In this document: positions 1,002 through 54,200 of the stretch, in pieces | Position numbering within the stretch: the first letter of the stretch is position 1 | Layout: each line of letters opens with the position of its first letter | Assembly: GCA_903936705.1 (NCBI GenBank) | Contig: CAIZWN010000078.1 | Location: 1 to 64,000 of the forward strand | Reading direction: 5' to 3' | Source of the DNA: an uncultured Myxococcales bacterium | GTDB taxonomy: Bacteria; Myxococcota_A; UBA9042; DTJE01 | Length of the DNA: 64,000 bases | Notes under the pieces: generated by a model | Seen by the model: the letters and a program-made list of their open reading frames with translations, nothing else | Databases searched by the model: none | Told to the model about the DNA's origin: nothing | Program-made: the position numbers and the translations under genes

Positions 1002-3044
1002 ATGACGCGACTCCACCTCGGACAGCGGGTAAGGCGTGTTGCACCATGGCTTGGGGCGGCCATGCTGCTTCTAGGGGCCGTCGGTGCGTGCAATACGAAA
1101 TGGGAGGCGGTGCTAAGTTCATACCAGTTCAACACGATGAACTTCGTATCCGTTTTCCCGGCGCACCGTAACGCGGAAGGGAACTACGAACGTCAGTGCG
1201 TTCCCAACTCAGACAAGCCCGTCAACAGTCTTCTATTCTCGCTAAACCTGGTGGGCACCGACCCCAGCGGCCCCAACGCCGCCGAAAGCGAAAAGGAGCT
1301 TGACTGGTCTATCCGCCCTGGCGACCTCATCAAGATGGGTACGTCCAATCGATTCGAGGTCGTCGAGGGCAAGGATGGTTCGATTTCCGAGAGCCATTTT
1401 CGCGTTGACGTTCCCTGTTTTGAAACTTATCCCGACCCTGACCTTACCGATGCCGCCGATTGCCAGGGCATTACAGGCCCGCGAGACCAGGTTCCTGCCA
1501 AGCTGAGGTACGTCGGTAATTTCCCGGCCGGCAGTCTTCGCCCCGAGCCAACCGATCGTGACGCGTTGGCGTTGGCGGTCCTGGTTGATCAATCGGGGTC
1601 GATGAAGGGTTTCGTCGAACAGAATACCGGGGTCGAGGCCAAGAACGGCAGTTCCGGGCCCTGGGATGCCGCGAATTTCAGTGATGGAGCGTCCGATCCT
1701 GACAGCCAGAGGTTGACCGCCATTCGGAACCTGTTCAATTCCCTGCTGAACCCGTCGGATCGTGCTGGCTTGTTCAAGTTCGGCGAGGTGGTTGGTGCGA
1801 AACCCGCCATCGTGTGCGGTGATGCAGTTGGCCGGGACGGCAAGCCCATTCTGGACAAGGACGAGGCTGCCAGGCGCGGGCGTTGTTTCAATACGGACCG
1901 TCGCTTGACCCTCGACAGTGCCGATTTTGCCAAACTGTCCTCCGAGGCCAAGGGACGCACTCCTCTTTGGGCGGCCGTTTCGGATGTCTATGACTTCATG
2001 AAGTCTCCCGTTCCATCGCGGGTAAAGCAGATCCTGGTGATCGGCGATGGACCTGACACCTGTCACGACACCTCTCCCGACCGACGGAAGGTACTTCGCG
2101 ACCTCAATTCGAGGGGCGTCTACCAAGAGTTTGATCAGACACTGGGCTGCTCCGACGTTTCCTACGAGATGTTTCTTGAAAAGCTGTTGAATGACCAGAA
2201 TGACCCGAATCTTGTTCCTGTTCACATTTCGTTCATTCAATTCCAGGCGGTTGGTTATCGCGAGCGAGACCCGCGCCAGCAGGAGATTGCCTGCCGGACT
2301 GGGGGACACTACATATTCGTGAATTCGCAGGATTTCCTGGTTGATGGCCTATCGAAGAACGCCCTTGGAGATGCCCTTGGCATGGCGGTTCAGCAGATTC
2401 GCTATGCGCTGGCTGGTACCTGGACCTTGGCCCTCGATGTTTCGGATCTGTTCAGCGGTGCCGTTTCATTGGGTTCTGAATTGGCGGTGCAGGCCGACAT
2501 CTCCCTTCAACCTAACGTATTTAATGCCGCGGGTTCGTTGGCCAGTTTACGCGTAGGCTACCAGGACGCAACCAATCCGGATATCAGCATTCCCAAGCTT
2601 GATCGACGAGGTGCGGTTCGAGTTCCGTGCGCCACTGGTGTTGACGATTGTTCCTGGTATTCGGGGTTGGGCGATTGCCAGCTGGCGACCTGCCGTGCGG
2701 TTGACAATGCCTGCATGGTATCGCCGGTTGTTGCCACGAGCGACGTCTGCCAGACGACAGGTACATGTGTATCCGGTTTTGGTGCCTGTTCGGTCAGGAA
2801 CCTTTTGTGCCAGGACGAGCCGATGGATGAGTTGGGGAACTGGACCAACAAGGCCGAGGCTACCCCTTGCTGTGATCCTGTCGGAACGTGCTTTCGTGGC
2901 GAGTGCGTGACGATTTCCAATCCATGCAAAGTGATGTTGTTCGATTCTGCAGGGGGTTGTGGGGCCGAGATTAATCGTGCGAACGATGTAAGGTGCGACT
3001 CGGCTAATCCCGCGAAGGTTTGTAAGGACGGTGCCTGTGGATAG
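1002..3044 (+). CDS. vWA-domain lipoprotein, cysteine-rich C-terminus (CglB/CglD-like role possible)
   Basis: I place the start at ATG 1002, preceded by GGAG and followed by a lipoprotein signal: MTRLHLGQRVRRVAPW, a hydrophobic core, then LLGAVGAC with the lipidated Cys near residue 30. An upstream in-frame start at 864 would bury this signal. A von Willebrand A domain follows, with the MIDAS signature DQSGSM near residue 200, a TPLW segment and a strand ILVIGDGPD. The last ~120 residues are rich in cysteines (spaced CxxxxC, CC). vWA lipoproteins CglB and CglD serve as adhesion or outer-membrane partners of the Myxococcus gliding machine. The location directly before a beta-barrel and TPR genes suggests a similar outer-membrane role, which is inference. 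Length is 680 aa. Confidence 0.8.
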   Translation: MTRLHLGQRVRRVAPWLGAAMLLLGAVGACNTKWEAVLSSYQFNTMNFVSVFPAHRNAEGNYERQCVPNSDKPVNSLLFSLNLVGTDPSGPNAAESEKELDWSIRPGDLIKMGTSNRFEVVEGKDGSISESHFRVDVPCFETYPDPDLTDAADCQGITGPRDQVPAKLRYVGNFPAGSLRPEPTDRDALALAVLVDQSGSMKGFVEQNTGVEAKNGSSGPWDAANFSDGASDPDSQRLTAIRNLFNSLLNPSDRAGLFKFGEVVGAKPAIVCGDAVGRDGKPILDKDEAARRGRCFNTDRRLTLDSADFAKLSSEAKGRTPLWAAVSDVYDFMKSPVPSRVKQILVIGDGPDTCHDTSPDRRKVLRDLNSRGVYQEFDQTLGCSDVSYEMFLEKLLNDQNDPNLVPVHISFIQFQAVGYRERDPRQQEIACRTGGHYIFVNSQDFLVDGLSKNALGDALGMAVQQIRYALAGTWTLALDVSDLFSGAVSLGSELAVQADISLQPNVFNAAGSLASLRVGYQDATNPDISIPKLDRRGAVRVPCATGVDDCSWYSGLGDCQLATCRAVDNACMVSPVVATSDVCQTTGTCVSGFGACSVRNLLCQDEPMDELGNWTNKAEATPCCDPVGTCFRGECVTISNPCKVMLFDSAGGCGAEINRANDVRCDSANPAKVCKDGACG

Positions 3045-3161
3045 TTCCTGGACGAGCCCCTAGTGGGCTGGTGGGGCAGTCGGATGGCCGGCGGTCCCTG
3101 TTCGTTGGATTCTCCGGCGTTCTTGGCGCCGTGGGACTGGAACACATCAGCGAGGACAGAC

Positions 3162-3968
3162 ATGAACGGAAGGTGGGCGCTGCGGACCGTCATCGGCATC
3201 GTCATCCTGTGTGCCTGGATCCCCGTCGCATTTGCCGAGGAAGGCGCGTCGGCCCAGGAGGAACGTTCGGCCCTGGACAAGGATCTGGACAAGGTCTGGG
3301 GCAAGGAACGTGACATCAAGGTGATCCAGAAGCGGGTCTTCGAGAAGGACAAGCGGCATGAGGTCGGCCTTTTGCTGGGCGCCATTCCGAACGACTCGTT
3401 CTTCAATTTCTTCCCGGTAGGGCTGCGCTATGCCTACTTCCCGCTTGAATCGGTGGCGGTGGAGTTTTCCGGCGCATACGTTGCTTCCAGCCAAAGCCAG
3501 CTTCAGAAAGATATCAAGAGCTTCTCTACAGCCATCAAGACTGTGAAGCTTGGTGACCGGGTCGAGTGGTATGCCGGTGTCAACGCCCACTGGATTCCGA
3601 TTCACGCAAAGGTCAGTATTCTTAACAAGAAGCTGACATCGCTGGACCTTGGCGTGACAATCGGCTTCGGCTTGATTGGCTCGAAGGTCAACGAGGACAA
3701 CAAATGGGAGACCCGCTGGTCCTATGACCACGCAATTCCATTCAACATCCAGATGAACATCGGCCTCAGTCTTCACTGGTTCCTTACCGACTATCTGGCC
3801 ATTCGGCTGGATTACCGGAATTACATTTTTCCAGCCTATCCTGGGTCAACCAGCGTGACCAAGTCCGACGGTTCCGTGGTGCGAAACTACAATTCCGAGT
3901 GGGGCGACGTCCGTTCGCTTTCCGAGATTTCCATCGGACTCAGCTATTTGTCGCCGGCGCCGAAGTGA
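3162..3968 (+). CDS. Outer-membrane beta-barrel protein (NfsA/NfsB- or GltA/GltB-like)
   Basis: The start at ATG 3162 has a GAGGA site upstream and gives a clean signal peptide (WALRTVIGIVILCAWIPVAFA, cleavage before EEG). After a charged linker of ~50 residues the protein alternates polar and aromatic residues as in a small transmembrane barrel: EVGLLLGAIPNDSFFNFFP, LRYAYFPLESVAVEFSGAY, and a closing strand SEISIGLSYLS. This matches the myxobacterial outer-membrane beta-barrel family, whose members include GltA/GltB and NfsA/NfsB. 268 aa is normal for such barrels. It lies 79 bp before the NfsC/GltC-like gene, the same order as in Myxococcus. The A-versus-B assignment cannot be made from sequence alone. 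Confidence 0.78.
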   Translation: MNGRWALRTVIGIVILCAWIPVAFAEEGASAQEERSALDKDLDKVWGKERDIKVIQKRVFEKDKRHEVGLLLGAIPNDSFFNFFPVGLRYAYFPLESVAVEFSGAYVASSQSQLQKDIKSFSTAIKTVKLGDRVEWYAGVNAHWIPIHAKVSILNKKLTSLDLGVTIGFGLIGSKVNEDNKWETRWSYDHAIPFNIQMNIGLSLHWFLTDYLAIRLDYRNYIFPAYPGSTSVTKSDGSVVRNYNSEWGDVRSLSEISIGLSYLSPAPK

Positions 3969-4047
3969 TTCAAGAATCTTGCGGCGGCGCGGATTTTGGC
4001 CGCGTCGCAGACCGGGGATTCGGACCTTGCATGGAACGGGTGAGACG

Positions 4048-5976
4048 ATGAAGCGAACCCTGACGCAGGCGCTGATGGCAGCGTTGATTGTCGCTGGTCT
4101 TGCGGTCTCGGCGCCCCCTGTCATGGCCATCACCAAAGAAGAAGTGGTGACATTGGTCAAGCTGGGGATTCCCGAGGCGGATATCGTCAAGTCGATCGAT
4201 AAGGACCGTACGGTCTTCGACTTGAAGATTCAAGACATCCTGGAATTGAAGAAGGCCAGTGTGCCTGACGGCGTCATCAAGCACATGCTTGCGACCGCCC
4301 AAAGGGGCGCGCAGCAGCCTGGTGGCACGTCCGGGGCGACGCCCGCGGCCGCGCCAGGTGCCGTGCAGAAGCCTGGTGCAGCGCCCGTGGTCGTTGCACC
4401 TCCAGTGATCCGGGTAAAGACACCAGAAGAGATCCGTGCCGAGGAAGAGCGCCAGCGCGAAGAGGCTCGCCGCCTTGCCGAGGAAGCGCGCAAGGCCGAG
4501 GAAGCGCGGAAGAACGCCTATTCGATGGGCGTGCTGCGTCGGGGCCTTTCGCTGTCCGAGCAGGGCAAGTGGGTCGAGGCGCTGGTGGTGTTCCAGAAGT
4601 TCGTCCAGGAAGGCAATTTCGCGCCCGGGACGTCGGAAGCCTACAACGCGAAGTACGGTATGGCGGCTGCGTTGACGCAGGCCGGGTTGTACCAGTCCGC
4701 GGCCAAGTTGCTGGTTGAAGTCCTTCTGGAGGGGCCGGACAAGGCATTCTTCCGGGAGGCTTTCGGCAAGCTGCGCAAGCTGCGCAAGGAGATCATCTAC
4801 AATCCGCCGGACCTCGAGGAACTGACCAAGTTTCCGCTGGTTGGGTTCAGCACAAAGTTCCAGGACGAATTCAATTACGTTCTGGGTGAATTCTTCTATG
4901 ATTTTGCGAACTACCAGCGTGCACTGAAGCACTTTGAAGCGGTGTCGGTGGCCTCGCCAGATGCGGCCAAGTCGCTGTACCTGACCGGTCTGGTCCAGGT
5001 CCGTTACAAGATGTACAAGTCGGCAGTCGAGAACCTTCAGAAGTCGATCAATGCTGCCGAAGCGAACAAGAGCGATCCGGCTGTCATCGATCTGGCCTTC
5101 ATGGCACTGGCCCGTATCGCCTACGAGTCCGAGAACTACGATGCGGCAATCTTCTACTACAAGAAGGTTCCTCGCGATTCGATTCGCGCCAGTACCGTTT
5201 TCTACGAATTGGCGTGGACCTACCTGATGAAGGGTGACTACTCTCGCGCCTTGGGTTCCTTCCATGCCCTTCATTCGTCCTTCTTTGCCCAGACCTTCTA
5301 CCCGGAACTGTGGATTCTGGAAGCAAGGTCTTACGGCGATTTGTGCAGGTACGACAAGGCCGGCAAGGCGCTGCGGATGTTCGATCGCCAGGTTGCCTTG
5401 CACATTGATCCGTTGAAGCGATTCATGAAGGCCCAACGCCAGCCAGAGGACTTCTACGTGAATTTCGTGGCGTCGATCAACCAGCCCAAGGCCGGGGTCG
5501 AACTGCTTCCGAAGGAACTGGCCTACCCGATTCTTTCGAATGTCGAATTCTACAACCTTTACAGGACCATTCGACAGATCGAGGCCGAGGACAAGCAGAT
5601 TCGCGCTCAGGCATCCAGGCTTGGTCCCTTTGCCCAGGAAATGGCTGTAAAGCTGAACATCCTGAAGAAGGACGGCCTGGTTCGCAGCGGCGTGAAGATC
5701 CAGCAGATCCTGACGGAACTTGAGGCGGCCATCAGCGAGGCCCAGGTCCAGCAGACCGAAATCGAAGTCGATATCAACGCAGCAGCCATCGACGTGATGA
5801 CCGAGGAAATCAGATCGACGGTCGGCGAAGGCGAAGCTGCCGAAGCCAAGAAGGTCCGCGGCGGCAGCATCGCCATCGTGGGTGGCGACACCGAGGTGTG
5901 GCCGTTCCAGGGCGAGTATTGGGGTGACGAGGTTCCGTTCTATCGCAGCCTGCTGACCAGCCAGTGCAAGGAGTAA
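4048..5976 (+). CDS. Periplasmic TPR protein, GltC/NfsC-like
   Basis: ATG 4048 is followed by a Sec signal peptide (MKRTLTQALMAALIVAGLAV...VMA). Residues ~28-85 form a small helical domain (TKEEVVTLVKLGIPEADIV, later LELKKASVPDGVIKHML). Next come an Ala/Pro/Gly linker and a strongly charged coiled coil (EEERQREEARRLAEEARKAEEARK). From ~160 to ~480 there are degenerate TPRs, such as YSMGVLRRGLSLSEQGKW and SEAYNAKYGMAAAL. The C-terminus is helical and acidic. The 642-aa length, signal, and placement between a barrel gene and a ~1165-aa TPR gene match GltC/NfsC. It probably links outer-membrane barrels to the periplasmic scaffold. Family identity rests on layout and architecture. Confidence 0.72.
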   Translation: MKRTLTQALMAALIVAGLAVSAPPVMAITKEEVVTLVKLGIPEADIVKSIDKDRTVFDLKIQDILELKKASVPDGVIKHMLATAQRGAQQPGGTSGATPAAAPGAVQKPGAAPVVVAPPVIRVKTPEEIRAEEERQREEARRLAEEARKAEEARKNAYSMGVLRRGLSLSEQGKWVEALVVFQKFVQEGNFAPGTSEAYNAKYGMAAALTQAGLYQSAAKLLVEVLLEGPDKAFFREAFGKLRKLRKEIIYNPPDLEELTKFPLVGFSTKFQDEFNYVLGEFFYDFANYQRALKHFEAVSVASPDAAKSLYLTGLVQVRYKMYKSAVENLQKSINAAEANKSDPAVIDLAFMALARIAYESENYDAAIFYYKKVPRDSIRASTVFYELAWTYLMKGDYSRALGSFHALHSSFFAQTFYPELWILEARSYGDLCRYDKAGKALRMFDRQVALHIDPLKRFMKAQRQPEDFYVNFVASINQPKAGVELLPKELAYPILSNVEFYNLYRTIRQIEAEDKQIRAQASRLGPFAQEMAVKLNILKKDGLVRSGVKIQQILTELEAAISEAQVQQTEIEVDINAAAIDVMTEEIRSTVGEGEAAEAKKVRGGSIAIVGGDTEVWPFQGEYWGDEVPFYRSLLTSQCKE

Positions 5977-6075
5977 GTTGGAGGCAAGAGGCTGCCTTGA
6001 ACAGGAAGCCCTGCCAGACCAATTGTTGACAGCCAGGTCGTTGGCTTACGTTCTTGTCGAAATATTGAGGGACGG

Positions 6076-9000
6076 ATGAACAGGACGATCGGTTCGCTTC
6101 TGGTGCTGGGTTTGGTTGTCGGCGCCCCCGGGTTTGTCGTCGCCAAACCTGCAAAGGCAACAACCGAAATTAAGCCTGTCGAGCAACCGGCCGCCGTACA
6201 GCCGGCCGCCGTACAGTCGGCAGCTCAGCCGGCAGCGGCAAAACCGGCCGTGAGCCAGGGTGCGCGTTCGGGCAAGTACACGCTGGAACAGGCCGAAGCC
6301 CTGGTCAACGAAGCTGTTGCCGCCAAGATGAGGGCTATTTCTGACAAGCGTCGCGAAAATATCGTCAAGCTTCAGCAACTGTTGGACAATCCAGACTACC
6401 GCAAGGACCAGGATCGCGCGCCAAAGGTCATGCACATGCTGGCAGAAGCATACTGGGAAGAAGGACTGTACCAGTACCTTCAGAAGCGATCGGACTGGGA
6501 CAAGGCCATGGCGTCGTTCAACTCGGGGACCCTGGCCGAGCAGCCGGCCGAGCCGATCGAGAACTATTCCCAGTCTCTGGACTTGTACCGTCGCGTCCTG
6601 CGCGAGTTTCCCAATTACGTGCGTATCGACGAGGTCTACTACTACCTGGGCAAAGGCGCCGTCAAGGAAGGGAAGGCCAAGAAGGATCGTGCCCTGCAGA
6701 AGGAGGGCGTCGATTACCTGAATCGTCTGGTCCAGAACTACCCGAAGTCCCGATTCATCCCCGAATCGCACCTGGCCATGGCCGAGTACTACTTCGAGAC
6801 CAATTCCTTGCACTACGCGAAGATCAACTACGAGAAGATCATCCAGAACTTCCCGAAGACGTCGATGTACAACTATGCCCTGTACAAGCTGGGCTGGGTC
6901 TATTTCAATCTGCGCGAGTTCGATACCGCAATCGAGACGTTCCAGAAGGTGGTGTCGCAAGTCGCGAAGATCGAAGGAAAGGGCGTCATCGAGTTCAAGA
7001 ACCAGGCGTTGAACGACCTTGTTGTGACATATGCTGAAATCGACAATGGCTGGCAGCACGCGAAAGACTACTTCCTGAAGGTGCTGTCCGAGGAAGACGC
7101 TTACAAGAAGTTGCGGATGCTGGGTGACCTGTACCAGGGCCAGGACAAGCCGGTCGAGGCCGTTGCGCTGTTCAGGCACTTCATCGAGCGCGAAAAGACA
7201 ACCGCCAGCGTGACCGAGTACTACAAGATCATTCTTGGCATATTCAAGAACACGAACGACATGCCCAAGCTGGACGAGACGAGCATCGAGGCTCTGAACT
7301 ACTTCAAGCCGAACGGGACCTGGTGGACTGTGAATCGGAAGGATTCGGAGTCTGTCGCCGAGGCTGACGCCCTGTGTGAAGAGTACCTTTTGTACATGGC
7401 GAACTACTACCACCGCGGTGCGCAGAAGCTGAACAAGGCGGATCTCTACGCAAAGGCTGCCGAGAAATACTCGCTCTACCTTGGCCGCTTCGGGGAATCC
7501 AAGAATGCGTACGTGGTCAACTTCTACTACGCGGAAATTCTGTACGAGCAGATGAAGGACTTCACCCGGGCACTTGAGCAGTACCAGCGGGTCGTCGATC
7601 GGGACACGAAGGGCGACTACGTCGAGGACGCCGCGCTGGGTGTAATCTACTGTACCCAGGAACTTATGGTCACGGCCGGCCTTCAGGAAGTCGCCAAGAA
7701 GGGCAACATCGAAGTCGTGAAGGTCGACCCGAAGAAGCTTGATGCGCCGATTCCGGAGACAGACCTGCACCCGCTGGAAGTCTCGTACGTTGCTGGATCC
7801 GACAAGTACGTCGATCTGCTGACGGAACTGCTGAAGGACCCGGAAGTTCGGAAGAAGAACCCCCAGCGTGGCGAGAAGATCCCCGAAATCATGTACATTT
7901 CAGCCCAGGTGTTCTACCGCCACGGCAAGTTCCAGGATGCCGTCGAGCGCCTGCAGAAGCTGTTCGCCTACGACGCCAACTCGAAATTCGGTGCGTACGC
8001 GGTCTTCACCCTGCTGGACTGCTATCAGCGGTTGCAGCAGTGGCCCAAGGTCGAGGTGTGGGCGCGCAAGTTGATTGCGGCCAAGAACTTCACAGTCAAA
8101 CCCGAGAAGGACCTTCGCAAGATCGTCGCAATCGCGATGACCGAGAACGCCCGAGTGCTGTCGGTCGAGCGCAAGTTCGGCGAGGCATCGACCGAGGCGA
8201 TGCGCGTCTACGAGGAATTCAAGGGCAACGAGGAAGTGGCCTCCAAGGCGCTGTTCAACGTGGCCGCGCTGTACGAGGGCCAGAAGGAGCCGGAAAAGGC
8301 CATCAAGACGTATCTTCGGGTAGTCAAGGAATTCCCGAAGTCCGATGTGGCGCCGGAAGCCTTGTTCACAATCGGCATGATCTACGAGTCGCAGACGGAA
8401 TTCGAGAAGGCCGCTGCAACCTTCGAGTCGATGGACCAGTTCAAGTCTCTGAAGGAACCGGCTGCCGGCGATCCCCAGGAGAAGAAGGACGCCTGGAAGA
8501 AGGTGCAAGAGCAGATGGCAGACGCGCTGCAGAACGCCGGGCTTCTGCGCGAGGCGCTGGGCGGATACCAGGACGCCATCGAGGTCTACCAGAAGTTCGT
8601 CAAGCAGTTCCCGACGCTTCCCGAGACTGCCAAGACCGATCTTCGTATCGGCATTGTCTACGAGATGAAGGGTGATGGGGCATCCCTGCGCAAGGCGCAC
8701 GACGCTTACCAGGCCTGGCTGAAGAAGGACTACAAGCGGACCGAGATGACGGTCGAGGCGCTGGCCCGTGCTGGCGCATGCCTGAAGCAGATCGACAAGG
8801 TGAAGGAGCGCAAGAATGCGTCCTCCCTGTTCCAGCGCGCCACCGACGCCTTCAACAAGATCGGCGATAACGCCGACGCGTTGAAGGCTTCGAAGACCTA
8901 CGCCGCGCAGGCGTCGTTCGAACTGGCCGACTATCTGTACGACGACTTCACGTTGTTGACGATTCCATCGACTGCCGACCCGAAGGTTCTGAAGAACGCG

Positions 9001-9573
9001 CTGGGCGCCAAGGCCGAGGCGCAGCAGAAGGCCGAGAAGTCGTTCGATCAGGTACTGACGTACAAGGCTGGTGGCTGGTCTGCCGGTGCCTTGTTCAAGA
9101 TGGGCCTGCTGTACTACGACTTCTATAAGGAACTGGACAACGTCCCGATTCCCGACTGTCCATGCCCCGGTATCAGGCAGAAGGATTGCAAGACCGTTCA
9201 GCAGGCGTTCAAGGACGGCGACTTCGACACGATCAACAAGTTCGATTGGGGACCCGAGTGGATGACGGTCGCTCCGACCTTCCAGGACCAGTACCGGGCG
9301 ATTATCGAAGAGATCATGCGCCCCGTTCAGGAAAAGTCCCTTCGCGCTTTCGAGAAGGCTCTGAAACTGGCGCACGAGGAGAAGGTGTACAACAAGTTCT
9401 CCAAGCTTTGCGCCGAGTATGCAGTCAAGGTGAACCAGGACACCTTCCCGGTGGCTGGTGATTCCGAGGTGAAGGCCAACCACGAGAAGGACACATTGGC
9501 AACTACCTCATTCATTCGTTCGCTGCGCCGCGGCGGCATCGAGGTCAAGATGACCCAGGAGGCTTCGCGATGA
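6076..9573 (+). CDS. Large periplasmic TPR scaffold, GltD (AgmU)/NfsD-like
   Basis: ATG 6076 has GAGGGACGG upstream. Residues 1-23 are a signal peptide ending VVA. A short Ala/Pro/Gln linker with AVQPAAVQ-type repeats follows. The rest, to 1165 aa, is TPR: units such as LYRRVLREFPNYVRIDEVYY, YNYALYKLGWVYFNLREFD and ALFNVAALYEGQKEPEKAIK recur throughout. One cysteine patch (CPCPGIRQKDC) lies near residue 1034. The size and domain plan match GltD/NfsD, a periplasmic scaffold of about 1200 aa in myxobacteria. The 3' end overlaps the next start by 4 bp (ATGA), indicating translational coupling with the GltE-like gene. The 99-bp gap upstream contains a TTGACA but no convincing -10. Confidence 0.75.
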   Translation: MNRTIGSLLVLGLVVGAPGFVVAKPAKATTEIKPVEQPAAVQPAAVQSAAQPAAAKPAVSQGARSGKYTLEQAEALVNEAVAAKMRAISDKRRENIVKLQQLLDNPDYRKDQDRAPKVMHMLAEAYWEEGLYQYLQKRSDWDKAMASFNSGTLAEQPAEPIENYSQSLDLYRRVLREFPNYVRIDEVYYYLGKGAVKEGKAKKDRALQKEGVDYLNRLVQNYPKSRFIPESHLAMAEYYFETNSLHYAKINYEKIIQNFPKTSMYNYALYKLGWVYFNLREFDTAIETFQKVVSQVAKIEGKGVIEFKNQALNDLVVTYAEIDNGWQHAKDYFLKVLSEEDAYKKLRMLGDLYQGQDKPVEAVALFRHFIEREKTTASVTEYYKIILGIFKNTNDMPKLDETSIEALNYFKPNGTWWTVNRKDSESVAEADALCEEYLLYMANYYHRGAQKLNKADLYAKAAEKYSLYLGRFGESKNAYVVNFYYAEILYEQMKDFTRALEQYQRVVDRDTKGDYVEDAALGVIYCTQELMVTAGLQEVAKKGNIEVVKVDPKKLDAPIPETDLHPLEVSYVAGSDKYVDLLTELLKDPEVRKKNPQRGEKIPEIMYISAQVFYRHGKFQDAVERLQKLFAYDANSKFGAYAVFTLLDCYQRLQQWPKVEVWARKLIAAKNFTVKPEKDLRKIVAIAMTENARVLSVERKFGEASTEAMRVYEEFKGNEEVASKALFNVAALYEGQKEPEKAIKTYLRVVKEFPKSDVAPEALFTIGMIYESQTEFEKAAATFESMDQFKSLKEPAAGDPQEKKDAWKKVQEQMADALQNAGLLREALGGYQDAIEVYQKFVKQFPTLPETAKTDLRIGIVYEMKGDGASLRKAHDAYQAWLKKDYKRTEMTVEALARAGACLKQIDKVKERKNASSLFQRATDAFNKIGDNADALKASKTYAAQASFELADYLYDDFTLLTIPSTADPKVLKNALGAKAEAQQKAEKSFDQVLTYKAGGWSAGALFKMGLLYYDFYKELDNVPIPDCPCPGIRQKDCKTVQQAFKDGDFDTINKFDWGPEWMTVAPTFQDQYRAIIEEIMRPVQEKSLRAFEKALKLAHEEKVYNKFSKLCAEYAVKVNQDTFPVAGDSEVKANHEKDTLATTSFIRSLRRGGIEVKMTQEASR

Positions 9574-11051
9574 CGAAGCGTATTTTCACGGTTCTTGTCG
9601 GAAGCCTGGTTCTTGCCGTCGCCGCGTGGGGTTGCGAAACCATGCAGGTGAAGTCCGACCAGCCAGTGGGCATTGACAAGAATGCCACGGCCAAGAAGGG
9701 CGCCGAGCGGGAAGACCTCTCGATGCACGTGGTCCAGGTTCAGAAGGAACCCGAGTACGTCGAGGGCGTGGTCAGGGGCGCGCAGGATGCCTTCCGGCGC
9801 GGCGTCATTGCCGTGTCGCGGACGCCTCCGGACTATGCCGTCGGTCGGGCCTCATTCGAGGAGGCGATCCGCCTGGATGTGGCGTTCCTCGAGGCGTATT
9901 TCAACCTTGGCATGCTGTACGAACGCACGGGCAAGCCTCTGGAAGCGGTCAGCACGTACAAGCGCGCGATGGAGGCGAATCCCGGAAATCTGGATGCGCA
10001 GGCCAGCGTAGGCAAGGTGTATCTGGCCCTGGCCAAGCGGGCCAAGATTGATGGTGACGCAGCCAAGGCAGCCGAGTTCGAGGCCGAGGCGCGCAAGGTT
10101 TTCGATTCCGTCATCGTCCAGAATCCGGACAACGTCGCAGCCAACAATGCAATGGCGCTGTACTGGCTGTATCGTGGTGACAAGGCTACCGCCGAGGACT
10201 TCGTCAGGAAGGTCTTGCTGGTTCAGCCGCACAACGTCGTGGCGCTGAATACGCGCGGTTTGATCAACCTTCAGGCCGACAAGCTGAGCATCGCCAGATG
10301 GGTGTTCGAAGTGAAGGCTCTTCGTGAGGACGCCAATTCGACCGAAGCTCTGACCAACCTGGGACTGACGTACCTGAAGCAGGGAGCGACCCCCCAGGCA
10401 GTGACCTCGTTCGAGAAGGCAATACTGGTCGATCCGGACAACTTTGAGGCCCGGATGAACGTGGCTGCCATCTACCTGGACTACCTGCACTACCAGGCTG
10501 CGCTGGATCAGTACGATGCCGCCTTGAAGCTGGTGCCCGGCGATGCCGAGGCACTGATCGGATCTGGCTCGTGCCTGCTGGGTTTGCACAAGCCGGCCGA
10601 TGCCGCTGATCGCTGGAAGAGGGCGTTGGTTGCTGATGCCGATCGGGCGATACTCTACCTGCGCATCGGTCGTATCTACGAGAGTTCCTTGAATGATCTA
10701 GGCAAGGCGATCGAGAACTACGAACTGTATCTGGCGAAGGGCAAGCCGCCGGCGAATGACCCGATCCGCGGGAAACTGCCCGTGTTGAAGGAAATGAAGG
10801 CAAACGGCGGGAACATTCTGCCGCCCGATCCGCCAGCGGCCGAGGGTGCCGCTCCCGCCGCCGGTGCGACGCCGCCTGCCGCTACAGCCCCTGCGGCTGC
10901 ATCTGCCGGGGCTGCGGTTGTTCCGGCGCCTGCGGCTGCCCCTGCGGTTGCTCCTGCGGCCGCACCTGCGGCTGCACCTGCCGCAGCACCTGCTGCAGCA
11001 CCTGCTGCGAAAGCACCGGCTCGTGCAGTGGACGCGGTCCCTGGAAAGTGA
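9570..11051 (+). CDS. TPR lipoprotein, GltE (AglT)/NfsE-like
   Basis: The start at 9570 has GGAGG 8 bases upstream and overlaps the preceding stop. The N-terminus is a lipoprotein signal: MTKRIFTVLVGSLVLAVAAWGC, with the lipidated Cys at 22. Residues ~75-400 hold at least eight TPRs, for example FLEAYFNLGMLYERTGKPLEA and TEALTNLGLTYLKQGATPQA. The last ~80 residues are low complexity, mostly Ala and Pro in APAAAP repeats, ending KAPARAVDAVPGK. Such a tail can span the periplasm or bind peptidoglycan. A 493-aa TPR lipoprotein directly after a GltD-size protein is the GltD-GltE arrangement of Myxococcus. Predicted location is the outer-membrane inner leaflet. Confidence 0.75.
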   Translation: MTKRIFTVLVGSLVLAVAAWGCETMQVKSDQPVGIDKNATAKKGAEREDLSMHVVQVQKEPEYVEGVVRGAQDAFRRGVIAVSRTPPDYAVGRASFEEAIRLDVAFLEAYFNLGMLYERTGKPLEAVSTYKRAMEANPGNLDAQASVGKVYLALAKRAKIDGDAAKAAEFEAEARKVFDSVIVQNPDNVAANNAMALYWLYRGDKATAEDFVRKVLLVQPHNVVALNTRGLINLQADKLSIARWVFEVKALREDANSTEALTNLGLTYLKQGATPQAVTSFEKAILVDPDNFEARMNVAAIYLDYLHYQAALDQYDAALKLVPGDAEALIGSGSCLLGLHKPADAADRWKRALVADADRAILYLRIGRIYESSLNDLGKAIENYELYLAKGKPPANDPIRGKLPVLKEMKANGGNILPPDPPAAEGAAPAAGATPPAATAPAAASAGAAVVPAPAAAPAVAPAAAPAAAPAAAPAAAPAAKAPARAVDAVPGK

Positions 11052-11109
11052 GTAGAATTCGCGCGGTGTCACCCTGGGTCAACCTGGGTGGTACGCCTGG
11101 AGGTGCTGC

Positions 11110-11376
11110 ATGAAGACTTTCGGTTGGCTGCTGGCTGTGGTTGCTTTTCTGGTGTTCGCGGCTCCCGTAACGGCCGCGGAGCCTGGCAAGGGCAGTGGCG
11201 GCGTCAAGTCGAAGTTCTACGACTTCAGCGACCAGCTGATCGACGGCGATATCAAGAAGCCGACGACGCTGTACACCGACGCTCGTCAGCGCGTAAAGTT
11301 CGATCGCCTGTTGAAGCTGAAGAAGTCCTTCATGGACCCGATGCTGCAGACCGCGAAAGAACAGGTATTCAAGTAG
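11110..11376 (+). CDS. Small secreted protein at gltF/nfsF position
   Basis: ATG 11110 follows an ideal GGAGG with 6-base spacing. The 88 residues start with a signal peptide (MKTFGWLLAVVAFLVFAAPVTAA). The mature ~65 residues are basic and soluble, with a SKFYDFSDQLIDGDIKKP segment and a lysine-rich end (LLKLKKSFMDPM). I do not recognise a named domain. In Myxococcus the gene after nfsE/gltE is a small nfsF/gltF gene, so position is the main argument. It closes the plus-strand operon: its stop is 1 bp from the stop of the convergent membrane-protein gene. Confidence 0.65.
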   Translation: MKTFGWLLAVVAFLVFAAPVTAAEPGKGSGGVKSKFYDFSDQLIDGDIKKPTTLYTDARQRVKFDRLLKLKKSFMDPMLQTAKEQVFK

Positions 11377-11377
11377 T

Positions 11378-11911
11378 TCAGGGAGCCTTGTTCGGCCACG
11401 TGGTCCAGCGGACCGTTCCTGACTCCTCCTCCACCATGAATCGAACAGTTTCAGGCAAGTCGGATGCAGGAAGCGTCGTGCGGCGCTGCATCGTAACAAC
11501 GAAGGCACGGTCAGTGCCGTATTGACGGCCTTCCATCGGATCCATGCGCGGCAGGTAATCGGCGCGATGCACGCAAGGCATCGTGCCAAGGGCGTCAGCC
11601 AGTTCCTGGGGAGTCAGCGTCCTGGCCGAAGCCGACAAGTCTGTCAATGCCGGCGAACCGTTGCTGGCGCAAACCCTGTCGTACATCGCCAGCGCGTCCG
11701 AGAAAGGGCTGCGCTCGGTCTGGAACAGGAATGGAACCAGCGCCAGGAACAAGCCGAAGACAAAGACGACCGCGATAAGAGGCCACGAGCGCCGATGGAC
11801 GATCTCGCCCAGAAAGTTCGGTCGAGGCGCCGCGATTTCCGCCGGTTCGCCGTCGGGATCGTCAACTGGCGGCAGGTTCAATTCTTCAGGGTTGCGCGAA
11901 TCATCAGCCAT
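11378..11911 (-). CDS. Single-pass membrane protein of unknown function
   Basis: 177 aa. An acidic, proline-rich cytoplasmic N-terminus (~40 residues) is followed by one transmembrane helix near residues 44-64 (WPLIAVVFVFGLFLALVPFLF). A soluble ~110-residue domain follows, with two cysteines that could pair in the periplasm (RVCASNG, TMPCVH). No family recognised. The start overlaps the 3' end of the DUF2520 gene by 34 bp, so it is the last gene of the nadD operon. Confidence 0.65.
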   Translation of the reverse strand: MADDSRNPEELNLPPVDDPDGEPAEIAAPRPNFLGEIVHRRSWPLIAVVFVFGLFLALVPFLFQTERSPFSDALAMYDRVCASNGSPALTDLSASARTLTPQELADALGTMPCVHRADYLPRMDPMEGRQYGTDRAFVVTMQRRTTLPASDLPETVRFMVEEESGTVRWTTWPNKAP

Positions 11912-45237: not shown

Positions 45238-45273
45238 GCGCAACTTTTTTGTCCTGGATCGTACGAGGTGGGG

Positions 45274-48200
45274 ATGGACGTCAATGAACTGCGGCGGCTT
45301 CTTGACGACGTGGCCGCCGGCCGCAGGACCGCCGAGGCACTGGATCGTGTCGCAGGGGGGCTGACACGTGATGATTTGCGTGAGGCTCTCGACTACGTGG
45401 GTGAACGCGTCGGACTTGCCGACGAGGCTCACGACATCGAGTCGTGGACCCGCCTGACGGGGGACCTTCTCTACCGCTGGGCACTGGGTTCTGACGACGA
45501 CATTTCCGGTCTGCTTGCCGCCACTTCGGCCGACCTGTTTCGCAAGGACCTGCAGGATGTCGAGGCGGCCGAGGCGGCGCGAATCGTTGCTGCAGTCCGT
45601 TCCCTGAATCCGGTTGCCATGACCACGCTTTTTGATTCGATCGGAGACGAACTTGCCGAGGAGCCTCGTATTCGTTTGATTCGCGCACTCTCGGTACTGG
45701 GTGACGAGCCGACACGGGTTCGTTTTCAGCCGATGCTCGAGAGCGCGATGGAAGCTGGAAGGCTGCGACTTGCGCGCGATACGGCGCATTCCGGAAGGCT
45801 CGAGCAAGCCAGGGAGTTGATCAACAACGACGGTCTTATCGCCGAAATAGTCGCCTTGCTGGACCAGCATATCGAAGCCTCCCCTGGCGACCTCGAGGCC
45901 CTGTCCTTGATCACCGGAGCCCTTGTCAAGGCTGGGCGCGATGACGAGGTCGAATTCAGGTATCGCCGGGGGCTGGATTCGCTGCAACACTCAAAGCAAG
46001 TAGAGGTCTTGTTCGAGTTGGGCCGATTTCACCGTGAGGTCCGGCATGATCTTCTGTTGGCCCGCGGCGCACTAGAGGAGTCTCTGGCCCTTGACAAGGC
46101 TAATTCAGCCGCGCTGGAACTATGGGTGTCGGTGATGGGCGATCTGGGGCTGGCCGACGAGGCACTCGCCTCGCTTGAAAAGCGCAGGCTGGAGGCGTCA
46201 GGCACCATTGACGAGGCCCGGGTCCTGCCGGTTCTGGCTCGGGCCTACCTGGCCTCGCAACGACCCGATGATGCCGAGCGAACCTGGCGCAGGGTCAGGG
46301 CAATAGACCCCAGGAACGTCGCTGCGCTGCGGTTCTACGAGGAATACCACCGATCGCGTGGCGACTTCCAGACGCTTTTCACGACGTTGCAGTTTCAGCT
46401 GTCTGTCGTGGAGGACCCGGAGGAACGTGTTCGGGTAAATCGTCTGATGGCCGCAGTTGCCGAGGAAAACCTGAAGAACCCCGAGCGCGCCGTCGAGGCG
46501 TGGAAGCGCGTTCTTGCTATCAGGCCCAACGACTCGGTAGCCGAGAAGGCATTGATGGACCTGTACCTGCGCCTGCGAAAGTGGCACGCGCTGGTCGAGT
46601 TCCACAACGAGCGTTTTCGACGGCTGCCACCTGAGGCCGTCGACGAAAAGGTCGTCACACTGTTCAAGATCATCGAGAACTACCAAGACCCGGATCGGCT
46701 GCCTAGTACGGATAACGTTCTGGCGACCTATGCGCGAATTGTCGAGGTTTCCCCGACACACAAGGAAGCGCTTGATACCCTGGCGCGCGGCTACCAGGAT
46801 CGCGAACGTTGGCCCGACCTTCTGAAGGTGCTGCAGAAGAAGGTTCTGGTTACCGAGGATCCGGTTGAGTTGCTCGAGATGTTCCAGCAGATTGCCGAGA
46901 TAGCAATCACAAGGATGTCGAACGAGACCCAGGCCATTCCGTTCCTGGAACGAATCCTGGAACTGGATCCCGAAAACCTGGCTGTGGTTCAGCGCCTGAA
47001 GACAATCTACCAGCACAAGCACAACCAGGAAAAACTATACGGCATGCATCTGCGCGAGTTGAAGATGCTCGCCGGTCCCGGGCGCGAGCAGGTCCTGATT
47101 GCCGCCGCCACGATGGCCCGGGATCGCCTGTTGCGCTATGACGAGGCTTTGCGACTATTCGAGGAACTCCATCGCACGAATTCGAACTCGCGCGAGGCCC
47201 GCGAGAACATGCATCAGTTGTACGCGCGCCTCGAGCGCTGGCAAGACTATGCCAGCTTCCTTGCGGAGGAGGTCGAGCGTCCGATGCCCGCGCGGCGTCG
47301 AATCGAACTGATGCACAAATGGGGCGAGGTTCTTGCGGACCGCCTGGGCGAGTCAGGCAAGGCCCGACTGGTGTTTGAACGCGTTCTTACGATAGACGCG
47401 GCCGATGACATCTCGGCCAGGCGACTTGAGCAGATCTATTTGGATCTGGAGGACCTGCCAGCGCTGCAACGTCTCTTTTCAGGGCGGCAGGATCTTCGCT
47501 CGTATGTTGCTCTGCTGTCGCAACGCGAGGCCAAGGAGGATGATCCTTCTCGCAAGGTGGCACTGAATCTCGCCATGGCGCAGGCGTGCGAGAATGATCT
47601 TGGCGAGCCGTCGCGAGCTGCTCGCTACCTGGAGAAGGCTTTTTCGCTGGACCACGGTCTGGTTGACGTTGGGAGACGATTGCTGGCTGCGTGCGAGGCG
47701 CAGGGTGACCTGGAGCGCGTATCGGCAATACTTCGCGACCTTGCTCCAGCGGTGGTCGAGTCGGATGAGCGCCTGGACCTGTTTCTGCGTTTGCACGACG
47801 TCCTCGAGCGACTGGGCGACCATACCGGCGCGTTCCATGCCGGTACTGATGCCGTACGCGTGGCAATGACCCTCGGGCGCGTTGCTAGCGCCCTGGAAAA
47901 GTTGAGGGCAACTGTTGTCAGTGGTGGCCTGTGGCAGGAATTTGCCGGAGTCCTGCAGGAGGTTTCAGCGGCGACAATGGACGCTGATTTCCGGCAGGAA
48001 TTGCTGCTGGAATTGGGACAGATATTCAAGGGGCGCCTGCTGTTTCACGACGAGGCATGGGACGTTCTGGAGCGGGTTCTGGACCTGGACCCTGGAAACC
48101 TGACGGCCATGGATCTTCTGGAAGACATTGCCCTTCAGAGAGAGGATTGGACCGGTCTCGAGAACGTGCTGCGCAGGCGGATCGACGTTGCCCGTAACGA

Positions 48201-51200
48201 GGGTGAGGCGCGGGATATCAGGATGCGCCTTGGTCGTTTGTACGAAGACCTTCTGGGCGATGACGGTGCTGCGGCGGAATGCTATGTTCAAGTTGTCCAG
48301 GCGACTTCCGGTGATCGAGAGGCCTTGGCCGGCCTGCACCGTACCTACGAGCATACCGAGCGCTTTGTCGATCTGGCCGATGTCATCAGGATGGAGATAG
48401 CTGCGGCGGCGGGTATCGAGTGGGAACGGTTGCGTCTGCAAGCCGAGCTTGCGCAGCTTTCTTGGGAGCATCTTGACGATGTGGACGAGGCTCTGCGTCT
48501 TTTGCAATTGTCGTTGGGGTCCGAGTCGCACGCTCCCGAGGCATTACGGCAGTTGCGCGTTCTGTTTGATAGACGTATCGCACGTGAGGCTGCTGCCAAT
48601 CTGATGGCGCCGTATTTCCGCAATGCCGGGCGGACCGATGAGTTGCTGGACCTTTTGCATGCTCGTCTGGATGACATTGCTCGTCCCGAGGCAGCGGCCT
48701 CGATCCTGATGGAGATGGCAGACATTCGGGAACGTGCAAAGGGCGATCCCGCTGGCGCGTTCGATTTGATCGAGGCTGCGGTATTACGCCACCCTGTCGA
48801 GTCGTTTGTAGAACGTTTGTGCCTGCTGGCCGATGCCACGGGACGGCATCGTGAAGCGGCTATCGCAATCGGCAGATGGGTTGGAATTGTTCCGGAAGGA
48901 ATAGCGATCAGTGACTCTACCATTCCCGATGCGGCAAGGGAGGCCAGGTTCTCGCTGGTTCTTGGGCACCTGTACGCAGAACGTTTGGACGAGCCTAGGC
49001 TTGCGATCAAGGCGCTTGAAAAGGCGCTTCCGTTTGATGCCGGTGACGAGTCTCTATTGCGCACATTGCTGGAGTTGTACCGCCGCGTGGGCGATCGCGA
49101 TTCGGCTATGCAGACCTTCGATCATCTAGCCGACGCTGCCGTTTCGACCCAGGCGCGGCGCGTTGTCCTGTTGTCCCGGGCCCACTATGCCCGCGAGCAG
49201 GGTTGCGACGATGATGCCATCGACACGCTGCAGCACGTCCTTGATCTTGAGGTTGGTGATGATGCCGCAGCCGACCTGGAAGTGCTGCTGGAAAAGAATG
49301 AGCACTGGAGTGAACTGGTCCGTTTGCTTGAGCGTCGCGAGGGATGGACCGGCGAGCCTGTCGCTCGTGCGGAACTTATTCGGCGCCAGGCCATCATTCA
49401 GAGCGCGAGGCTCAACAGGTTGGACCGGGCTGCCGACCTGTTGCGGCGGGCACTGGTCGACGATCGCGATCGCGAGGATTTGAGGGTTGAGGCCGAGGCT
49501 TTGGCCCTGCGCCACGAACTACCGGGATGGCGCGATTGGGCACCTGCGCTGCTGGCGATATTGGAGGAGATATTCCGCGGTGATCCTGCCGCGATGGATC
49601 GACTGGCGCGCGTCTACCGGGCCAAGGCCGACTGTGCCGCCTCCCCCTGGGAGTGCGTTGTGGCCCTGAACGAGTTGGCTGCGCTGGAGCGGGAACGAGG
49701 GAACCTGGATGCAGCCTTCGCTGCACGGGTCAAGGCCTTGCGGACGATGCCGGACGACGGATCGCTTGCCGATTCCGTCGTGGAGGCCGGTGAAGAAGCT
49801 GGCAAACCCGAGAGCGTGGTCGAGGCCCTCGAGTCAGTGGCGCCCACGGCAGGAATCGAGGGGCGGGTCAGGATGCTGCTGTGTGTGGCTCGAACATGGA
49901 GAACACGGCTGGACGATGCGACTCGTGCCATGGCGATATATGACCAGTTGCTGGAACTGCAACCAGGGTCGATGAGCGTCATGCGCGAGGTCGACGACCT
50001 GCTGCATGCCCAGGGACGTGAGGCCGAGCGTATTCCGCTGCTGACCGAGATGGCTGTTGCAGCTCCGACGCTTGACGAGCGTCGCCAGACACACCTGACG
50101 ATCGGTATGCTGTGCCAGACAACTGGGGACTTCGATGGGGCGGTGCGGGCATTCAGGTACGTACTGGATCGGCGTCCATCGGAGGACACCCTTGACCAGT
50201 CATCCCTTGATGCTGCCCTGCGTCTGCTTGGCCTGGCCGAGACTTTGGGCCGCGTTCGCGATTCGGTTGATCTTCATCTTCTTGTTGGACGTGCAGGTGG
50301 CGAGCCCGCGGGCCATCGTCTTCATCTTCTGGCAGCAGCCCGTCTTCTGATGGATACCCTGAACGATTCGTCCGAGGCCAACCGTGTGTACGATGAACTC
50401 CTTGCGCTTGACCCGCTGGATCTGGAGGCGCGCAACGAGTCGAAAATCATCGCTCGGAATTCCCCAGACGGTTCACGGCTATTGATGCTGCTGAAGGACG
50501 AATTGTCGCATGCTCCAGATGCCATCTCCCGGGTTGATCCCCTGATGGAACTGGCCGACATTCACCTGGCGGCCGGCGAAATGGGTCGTGTGGATGCGCT
50601 GGGCTGCCTGTCTGAGATTCTGGAAACTGTTCCTGCTCATTCAACGGCGCTTGAACGACTGGACTCGTTGATATTGGACCCATCATCCGGGGCTGAACCC
50701 GCCGGGCTGCTGCTGACGGCGTCTCAGCGGACCGGCGATGTCGCTGGGCTGGCCCGAGCCCTGCGCTGTCTGATCAGTCTTTGTGACCAGCCGACCGAGG
50801 CGGTTGAACTTCGTATTCGCCTTGCAGTCAGCCTTAGAACGCTTGGAAGATGCGACGAGTCGCGTACCGTTCTTGAAGAGGCGTATCGATTCTCGCCCCA
50901 GTCGGACAAGGTATTCGCTGCCCTGACCGAAGCGCTGGAGTCTGATGGCGTACTTGGAGGGCTTTCCGGGATAACCCTGTCTGTAGTTGGCTCGATCGAG
51001 GAACCTTCAGCCCGTCTGTCTGCCCGCCTGCGAGCCGCCGCTGTGCTGTTGCGGGCTGGTCTTGCCGACGAGGTTGTCGCACTCCTTGAGGCCAACGTTC
51101 TTGAACTTGAATCCGACATTCCCTCGCTCGAGATGCTGACTCTTGCATTCGAGACGCTGGGACGTCCCGACAAGGTACTTGAGACCCTTGAGAACACCGC

Positions 51201-54200
51201 CAGGGTCCACCACGAACCCGCGGTTCGTCGTGAAATCAGGCGTCGTTGCGCCATGTTGGCCGAACTGGAGATGGCTGATCCAGTCAAGGCTACTGGATTC
51301 TGGTGGCTTGTACTCGAAGACGAGCCTCTGGATTCCGAAGCGCTGGTCAAACTTGCACAGTTGCAGGATTGTGCGCGGGATTGCGACGGGTGCATCCGCC
51401 TTGTTCGCCATGAACTTGCCAAGCGCCAGGGCAGCGGGTTGCAGTCGGATATTGTGCGCCAGATGGAGCTTAGACGCCGTCTGGTACTGTTGACACTCGA
51501 CGCGGGTTTCACTGCTGATGCCGTGACTGCGGCGGTTGATTTGTTGGAATCCGGAACCAACGAAGGCATCGACTTGACGGTTGCCCGTCGTGCCTACGCT
51601 GAAGCCGGGACGCCTCCGGAGCTTTTCCTCGCACTTTCGTCGGCCTACGAGGCGGTTGTTGATCGCGATGGCTTGCTGGATCTGTACCGCTATGCCGCCG
51701 GAATGGATTTGGCCATTCCAACGAAAGTCGAGGTGTTACGTCTGGCGGTAGATATCGAAGAATCGCTTGGTCGTGATGACGACCTGTTCGAGGATCTTAC
51801 GGTCCTGATCGAGATCGATGCAGCTGACTCTGTTCAAAGAGCTCGACTGGAAGCTGCTGGTCGGAGGATTGGTCGTCTTGATGGCGTGCGGAATTCGTTG
51901 GTGGCCGCCTTCGAGTCATTGACTGATCGGCCGGAGTCTTTCGATGTTGCGATGGCTCTTGCGCGGATTCTTCAGGACGATCTTGGTCGAGAGGATGATG
52001 CTGCCGACTGGTTGAAACTTGCCTTCTTGCGGCGCCCAGGTGACGCGCAGGTCATCGAGGCTCTTTCGGCCCTCTACTCGCGGCTGTCGCGATTCGCTGA
52101 TCTTGCTCACCTGTTCGAGAACCTTGGAGACTTGGAGCAGGGCGTTGATGAACGCTTGGCGTTCTACTTCAAGGCCTACGACGTCATGCGCTTTCGCGTA
52201 AAAGATCCAACCGGCGCGACCAATATTCTCAAGAAGGTGCTGGACCAGGAACCTGGTAATCGTGGGGCGCTGGAGGGCCTGGAGTCCCTGGCCCGCGAGA
52301 CGGGTGATTCCGGCGCGCTGTGCTTGTGGCTTGGTCGAAAGGCCGAGATGGCTACCACTCCTTCCGACCGGCGATCAACGCTGCTGGAGTTGGCAACGGT
52401 TCAGGAGGGTGTTCGTGATGATGCCTCGGCTGCCATTGTCACGCTATGCCGTCTTGTAGAGGTTGATCCGCAATGCGACGAGGCCTGGCGTCGGCTTGAG
52501 GGTATTTATGTCGCGACCCAACGATATGAGAATCTAGCCGATCTTTACGAGCAACAGGCTGCGCTTGCTGCCAGTCGCGAGGATACTATCGAATCCTTGA
52601 AGAAGGCGGCGGGGATCTGCGAAAGCCGCCTTGGTGATCCGGGACGGGCAATATTGTTGCTGCGCAGGATCCTGGATGCGGATTCCGGGAATGCCTATGC
52701 GTTTTTCCGGCTCAGCGAATTGCTGGATTCCGCAGATGACGCTCTGGGCCTGGTCGAGTTGCTGGTCGCACGACTGGCCCATACGGTGGCATCCTCGGAG
52801 ATTGTCGATCTGAATGCCCGCGTGGGCATGTTGTGGGCCAACCGTTTGGGTGACGATGCCAGGGCTGTCGAACACCTCAAGGCCGCGCTGGCAATTGATC
52901 CATTCCACGCGACTGCCAGGGCTGGGCTCGAGAGGCTGTTGGATTCGACTTTGGTCGCCATGGAAGCTGCCCTGGTTCTTGAGGGTGTATACGAGGCGGC
53001 CGGAGATTACGCGCTGCTATGCGGGGTCCTTGAGCGAGAGATTCCTCAGATGGTTGGCAGTGCCGAACGCGAGAGTGTTCGGATGAGGATTGCCGAGGTT
53101 CGCTCGGAACGTGTTGGCGATATTTCTGGAGCGGTTGAAACACTGGCTGACGTTCTGTTGGACAACCCTTCGAACAAGGAAGCTGCATCGCGTTTGGTGA
53201 TTCTGACGGAGCGCATCGGGACGTGGGACCGACTGACAACCTTGCTGGCAGAGTGCGCGGGCAGGGCCGAGTCCCCTGACGATCGAATTCGACTCAGGCT
53301 GGCGGCAGCCGAGATTGCCGAGCGAAATCAGCACCAGCCTTCCTTGGCGGCGCAGATCTACGCAGCACACGTTGCAGAAAATCCAACGGACGACCTGGTG
53401 CTGGGCGAACTGGACCGTCTGTACCAGCAACTTCGACGCACCGAGGATCTTGTAGGCATTCTGAAGATGCGCGTTGCATGTGCGGGCGAGGCGGTGCCTG
53501 ATGATCTGCGTTTACGGCTTTCTGCCTTGCTGTCCCAGGACGGCGTCGAGGTTGATGGCGCAGTCGAGCAACTAGGCCGGGTACTGGAAGGCCGACCCGG
53601 GCACCCCGAGGCTATTCGCCAGCTTTCCACTTTGGCTTCCGATCCGGTCGCTGGTCGGCATGCACTTGAGGTCCTGCGGTCAGCGTTCAGGAGCGTGTCC
53701 GATGACGAAGGGCTTCTTTGGGCAGTCGAACGCCTTATTGACGTTGCGTCGGATTCGTCGGACGTGGTGTCGTTGCACGACGAAGCCGCTGATGCGGCCA
53801 TGCGCCTGGGTCGTCGTTCCGTAGAGGTCGAACACCTGGGGCGCGCCCTGGGGTTGGTCCCATCGGATGAAGGCGTGCTGGTTCGATTGATCAAGGCTTC
53901 GCGGGAAGGTTCTTTGCAGGCGACTGCTTTTGGATACCTTTCATCTGCAGCCAGCGGAGCTTCGTGGCCGGAGTTGGAGAAATCCTTGCTGTTGCAGGCC
54001 GTCAGGCTTGGCGTTCCGGTCGGGGTTCCTGCACAGGCGATTGAAACCTCGCTGCAACGAGTAATGGCGATTGATCCGGTCTGCAAAGAGGCACTGCTGG
54101 CCCTGGACAAGATGTACGAGGCCGGTGCAAGAGGCGTCGAGTTGGCAGGAGTATTGGATCAAAGGCTTCGTCTTGATCTATCGCCTGACGAGCGAGTCGA

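Follow-up and report, generated by a model that had tools for sequence, protein, structure and literature searches.

Does an operon that resembles a trans-envelope gliding machine, and that has no motor gene beside it, represent a reduced system or one part of a complete machine? The question is raised by a 64,000-nucleotide stretch of DNA (here termed the window) from an uncultured Myxococcales bacterium (GenBank assembly GCA_903936705.1, contig CAIZWN010000078.1, positions 1 to 64,000 of the forward strand). Contig 78, which begins at base 1 of the window, belongs to a 4.85-Mb assembly in 84 contigs that is 96% complete with 1.16% contamination. Six collinear plus-strand open reading frames (ORFs) were read at 1002-11376; they encode a lipoprotein with a predicted vWA domain, an outer membrane (OM) beta-barrel, three TPR proteins and a small secreted protein (Table 1). 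An earlier note, made from the sequence, had described this run as a compact operon related to the Glt (gliding) and Nfs (spore-coat) machineries of Myxococcus, and the ORFs bore out its six genes and protein sizes. Our results suggest that the operon probably belongs to a distinct lineage of Agl-Glt-type machines for the transmission of force, of which it encodes the half located in the OM and periplasm; the other parts are encoded on other contigs.

Comparison with NCBIfam models supported the assignment of five of the six products to a divergent trans-envelope set of the Glt/Nfs kind. The barrel matched TIGR04565 with 72.4 bits (E 4e-20), over the cut-off of 60 bits. The GltC-like protein matched NF033756 over profile positions 124-621 of 622 (E 3.6e-51, 174.7 bits), the GltE-like protein matched NF033758 (E 5.2e-23, 81.7 bits), and the CglF/GltF-like protein matched NF033764 over positions 8-84 (E 3.3e-12, 46.3 bits). 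Other TPR models scored about equally on the GltE-like protein; such generic models confound its assignment, but not that of GltC, the barrel or GltF. The likeness of the TPR proteins thus goes beyond generic TPR in the case of GltC, and the divergent Glt/Nfs-like membership proposed in the note was upheld. The 1165-aa protein had no specific model and was assigned to GltD by size, position, TPR content, blastp and tree; by the last two it is related to the GltD proteins of two other sets, a reference Glt cluster and a second Glt-like set in the same genome (set B, described below). The lengths also agree with those in Myxococcus xanthus (PMC3169522): 642, 1165, 493 and 88 aa for GltC, GltD, GltE and GltF here, as compared with 673, 1191, 471 and 89 aa.

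The note had listed AglRQS, GltG and GltI/J as missing. This is true of the window, but a search of the whole genome revealed them on contigs 44, 79 and 75. The genome encodes four MotA/TolQ/ExbB proteins, two of which sit in ExbB-ExbD-TonB-like loci. A third is TolQ-like (L006:8150-8857, minus strand), and no TolR-like neighbour of it was detected. On contig 44, a GltG-like gene is directly followed by three adjacent genes: the first encodes a TolQ-like protein (249 aa; MotA_ExbB, 6e-29), and the other two encode TolR/ExbD-like proteins (158 and 193 aa; ExbD, 2e-19 and 2e-13). AglR, AglQ and AglS of M. xanthus have 245, 162 and 194 aa, and AglR contacts GltG (PMC3169522). The near-identical lengths, together with the adjacency of GltG, one TolQ-like and two TolR-like genes, indicate an AglR-AglQ-AglS pattern on contig 44. 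The GltG of this contig matched NF033760 (E 8.2e-46) and the TonB-like tail model myxo_SS_tail (2.5e-27). Contig 79 encodes a GltJ (NF033761, 8e-22) with GYF_2 (1.5e-12), Zn_ribbon_4 (5e-10) and a TonB-like tail, and beside it two further TIGR04565 barrels (89.6 and 58.8 bits). Contig 75 encodes a GltI-like protein of 3589 aa, the C-terminus of which aligned with the GltI-like protein of a complete Glt cluster (28% over 1050 aa). By gene content, the motor and transducers are present in the window's genome on other contigs. The window itself also encodes a giant TPR protein of 3527 aa (45268-55851, plus strand) without the GltI C-terminal domain; it was rejected as GltI because it lacks the C-terminal match that the contig 75 protein has.

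The note's suggestion of a reduced, motor-less Glt/Nfs system arose from the absence of motor, GltG and GltJ genes from the window. All of these are encoded in the same genome, along with the GltI-like protein, and are split over loci as the M. xanthus Glt/Agl genes are split over clusters G1, G2 and M1 (PMC3169522). A motor-less system is therefore very improbable: the genome as a whole refutes it, save in the case that contigs 44 and 79 are contaminants, and contamination as the source of the motor was rejected because GltG and AglR are linked in close relatives also. The motor-linked type of GltG was found in 52 of 53 relatives. It adjoins AglR in 12 of the 30 loci examined, including nearly all of those from the window's family, as judged from flanks of 1.5 kb only.

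The same data bear on another explanation, in which the operon's products (vWA lipoprotein, barrel, TPR proteins) make up a static adhesin scaffold or envelope bridge that is not driven by a motor. Such a scaffold would fit an operon that contains no motor, GltG or GltJ gene, and the many class members that showed no AglR in the 1.5 kb around GltG. However, the near-universal occurrence of motor-linked-type GltG in relatives, the GltG-AglR linkage held through the window's family, and adhesin operons that themselves end in GltJ in three other families (see below) all argue for a driven machine, and we regard the static scaffold as improbable.

The vWA call of the note was weak for the window protein alone: its Pfam vWA match was not significant (E 0.1), and searches against Pfam, NCBIfam and PDB sequences gave nothing significant. 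It was supported by the family and by the predicted fold. VWA_2 was detected in 8 of 22 family homologues, and the lipobox cysteine was invariant across all 22. The window protein has a Cys-rich C-terminus and a metal-ion-dependent adhesion site (MIDAS) formed by D196-S198-S200, T320 and D349; among the homologues, DxSxS was conserved in 21, the T/S position in 19 and the final D in 22. An AlphaFold model (pTM 0.78) matched integrin I domains with target-normalised TM values up to 0.70. The VWA_2 matches, conserved MIDAS and predicted fold make the vWA assignment firm for the family. In a phylum-wide search with the vWA profile, strong matches were confined to the window's class; the weak matches outside it included lipoproteins of 411-560 aa with the lipobox context CDSTV or CDTVA. 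Profile-profile comparison of the window family with these shorter vWA lipoproteins gave a probability of 99.9 (E 1.4e-33) over 382 columns, from lipobox to C-terminus, the second alignment (A2) having been built from matches of the first profile and hence not being an independent family. Second vWA paralogues were also seen away from Glt genes in several class genomes (L069, L070, L076, L079, L081, L085, L087 and L088).

A scan of ~85,000 species provided 37 named vWA loci of other Myxococcota; the relatives of the window's genome in named collections are uncultured Myxococcota metagenome-assembled genomes (MAGs). In 25 of the 37 loci, one or two barrel genes came after the vWA gene, and GltC-D-E-F after these, as far as the contigs reach; the remainder are contig ends or second, unlinked vWA copies. 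Since this order was kept in so many loci, the six-gene arrangement is not a matter of chance; it held at vWA identities down to 26%. The distant, shorter form of the vWA gene was likewise the first gene in three other families (G061; G077, G079 and G080; G082), where it precedes barrels, C, D, E and F and then, where the contig reaches, mostly GltJ. Thus the vWA lipoprotein, which the note had taken for an addition to the Glt/Nfs set, is instead a conserved first gene of the lineage. Its sequence is the most variable of the operon. Across 14 loci, mean identity was 34.5% for vWA, 43% for the barrel and 53-55% for GltC/D/E, and vWA was the least conserved member in 13; AglR identity within the window's family was mostly 75-90%. 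Conservation thus falls from the inside to the outside of the cell, as expected for a surface adhesin. Three public MAG records (L071, L059 and L057), under the names Klebsiella pneumoniae, Anaeromyxobacter dehalogenans and Oligoflexales, carry Glt operons that fall inside the window's Myxococcota clade; these records are probably mislabelled or contaminated.

Two further Glt-like sets occur in the window's genome. Set B, on contig 83 (L049), comprises GltC, an apparently fused GltD/E (1417 aa), GltF, GltG with an FHA domain, and a TPR protein. It shares its core proteins with the window set and lies closer to the NCBIfam models of GltC (307 bits) and GltG (286 bits), but neither a vWA gene nor a barrel was seen adjoining it. 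Set C, on contig 73 (L050), is very divergent. As a reference we used a cluster of genome G084 with the order barrel-GltC-GltD-GltE-GltF-GltG-TPR-GltI-GltJ and no vWA gene; its GltC (483 bits) was the sole one over the GltC cut-off among 373 phylum genomes.

GltD and GltC were placed in trees of 38 and 39-40 rows, respectively. In these, all vWA-operon rows fell together in a single clade (SH-aLRT 97-100), with set B of the window's genome outside it. The A/B labels came from the best blast hit, and this tilts the grouping; all vWA rows, however, were found via their vWA neighbour. The reference cluster grouped with set B; forcing it into the vWA clade was disfavoured, but only marginally (p-AU 0.067 for GltD and 0.032 for GltC). 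G080 carries both the vWA-operon type and the set-B-like type, indicating that the duplication is old. These findings are best read as evidence that the adhesin-headed operons are a distinct, old lineage of the Agl-Glt machine dedicated to an operon-encoded adhesin. This lineage is a variant arrangement within the known Agl-Glt/Nfs class of machines.

The M. xanthus Agl-Glt system (clusters G1, G2 and M1, plus CglB) has counterparts here for all of C, D, E, F, the barrels, GltG, GltJ, GltI (as a GltI-like protein), AglRQS (as an AglRQS-like triplet) and, probably, the vWA OM lipoprotein. It differs in that cglB lies apart, whereas the vWA gene heads the operon in the window; moreover, gltG is motor-linked here, and the trees tend to place the operon in a paralogous lineage and not with the GltC-D-E-F-G-I-J cluster. 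In M. xanthus, CglB, a vWA adhesin of focal adhesions, is purified together with five OM components of the gliding apparatus, and engagement of the inner with the outer complexes unmasks it (PMC12288465). The window's vWA protein resembles CglB in its OM lipoprotein signal, its vWA domain with MIDAS, and its Glt ties; compared by description, it differs in its length of 680 aa, its Cys-rich C-terminal extension and its location inside a Glt operon. It is probably a relative or equivalent of CglB, likened by domain and context. No member of the vWA family matched a CglB model in NCBIfam. A 2011 survey (PMC3169522) reported CglB from Myxococcales alone, Anaeromyxobacter excepted. One genome was searched for CglB-like proteins in the class of reference genome G084, without a match, so nothing follows for the class. 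One paper (PMC12204202) names AglZ as the vWA gliding adhesin, although the study that it cites is the one on CglB; the name seems to be a slip.

In the proposed Agl-Glt-type machine, proton flow through the AglRQS-like stator would drive the inner-membrane transducers GltG and GltJ. GltC, GltD and GltE, together with GltF, would pass this force on through the periplasm to the OM barrels, which would hold or expose the vWA lipoprotein. Its metal-ion-dependent I-like domain would grip a ligand outside the cell, and motor movement would be converted into surface traction (gliding) or into movement of a surface polymer. By homology with M. xanthus, we infer that the parts may assemble into one complex with the vWA protein exposed at the surface, and that they may transmit force; gliding would be the likely output.

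Several observations weigh against this reading. The matches of the GltC-, GltE- and CglF-like proteins are far under the equivalog cut-offs (174.7 of 450, 81.7 of 225 and 46.3 of 90 bits, respectively). The motor-linked GltG (L008:7083-8858) has no FHA domain; its N-terminus has about four hydrophobic segments instead. The genome showed a single AglRQS-like triplet to three Glt-like sets, and the sets on contigs 83 and 73 could compete for this one motor. Lastly, the MglA/MglB polarity switch (a GTPase and its GAP), by which M. xanthus regulates its gliding, was not found: a profile search of the genome did not find MglB (Robl_LC7), and nor was MglA found, the matches to the Arf model, which is generic and not MglA-specific, being Obg, IF-2 and FeoB. 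The Robl_LC7 cut-off was exceeded in 5 of 52 class genomes, and an MglA-like GTPase adjoins one of the four roadblock loci inspected. Because the Arf model is generic and there was no clean positive control, the absence of MglA/MglB from the window's genome, a difference from M. xanthus, is graded as probable. In L219, L221 and L222, the neighbour of the Robl_LC7 gene is metallo-hydrolase-like and not an MglA-like GTPase.

The probable lack of the switch makes regulated gliding of the M. xanthus type unlikely, and so bears on the possibility of an Nfs-like machine for envelope or coat assembly, in which a surface polymer is moved round the cell, the vWA protein having this polymer and not a substratum as its ligand. 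The barrel-C-D-E-F order is the same as in nfsA/B-C-D-E-F, and the AglRQS motor can serve both Glt and Nfs, Agl-Nfs driving coat assembly in M. xanthus (PMC3858216). Against this, the operon contains neither NfsG nor NfsH, as confirmed by inspection of the downstream gene, and is headed by an adhesin-like vWA lipoprotein; related operons end in GltJ, which is not part of the described nfsA-H set. We consider an Nfs-like function unlikely, although less so than a static scaffold. A broader version of the Agl-Glt reading is offered tentatively, as possible yet doubtful: a separate ancient Agl-Glt lineage may extend across Myxococcota, with a transducer operon that opens with the gene of a fast-evolving integrin-like adhesin and, in the window's class, without the MglA/MglB switch, and the M. 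xanthus arrangement (CglB apart, MglA-controlled) may be a derived mixture.

In M. xanthus, the gliding grip rests on one adhesin, CglB, the gene of which is unlinked to the machine. A vWA/MIDAS lipoprotein joined to transducer genes across distant Myxococcota provides independent genetic support for the link between adhesin and transducer. The operon family also offers many natural variants of the adhesin-barrel interface, and makes the need for MglA/MglB testable.

Table 1. Genes of the adhesin-headed operon and the truncated gene upstream of it (window coordinates)
Feature	Position	Strand	Remarks
Second lipoprotein gene, 3' part only, cut by contig start	3-851	+	Homologues upstream of vWA in relatives
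vWA lipoprotein, integrin I-domain-like	1002-3044	+	680 aa, lipobox Cys30; predicted OM; CglB-like candidate adhesin
OM beta-barrel, GltA/GltB/NfsA/NfsB kind	3162-3968	+	ATG at 3162; TIGR04565 OMP_myx_plus
GltC-like periplasmic TPR protein, signal-bearing	4048-5976	+	642 aa; NF033756
GltD-like giant periplasmic TPR protein, signal-bearing	6076-9573	+	1165 aa; TPR families, blastp, tree
GltE-like TPR lipoprotein, signal-bearing	9570-11051	+	493 aa; NF033758
CglF/GltF-like small secreted protein	11110-11376	+	88 aa; NF033764

The gaps along the six-gene run are 117, 79, 99, -4 and 58 bp. The negative gap is an ATGA overlap, which the note had reported but had placed between the two largest TPR genes; it actually joins the stop of the 1165-aa gene to the start of the 493-aa gene. 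A scan for promoters and terminators gave sites no more numerous than in shuffled sequence, and co-transcription of the six genes is suggested by their order and spacing only. The gene 3' of the operon (11378-11911, minus strand) is convergent and unrelated.

The gene cut by the contig start encodes a second lipoprotein, the family of which had no Pfam or NCBIfam match. In 10 loci of the window's family (L053-L062), a homologue of 703-797 aa immediately precedes vWA on the same strand. An AlphaFold model of the L055 homologue (pTM 0.69) matched beta-propellers such as YncE. This lipoprotein gene is the probable first gene of the operon in the window's family.

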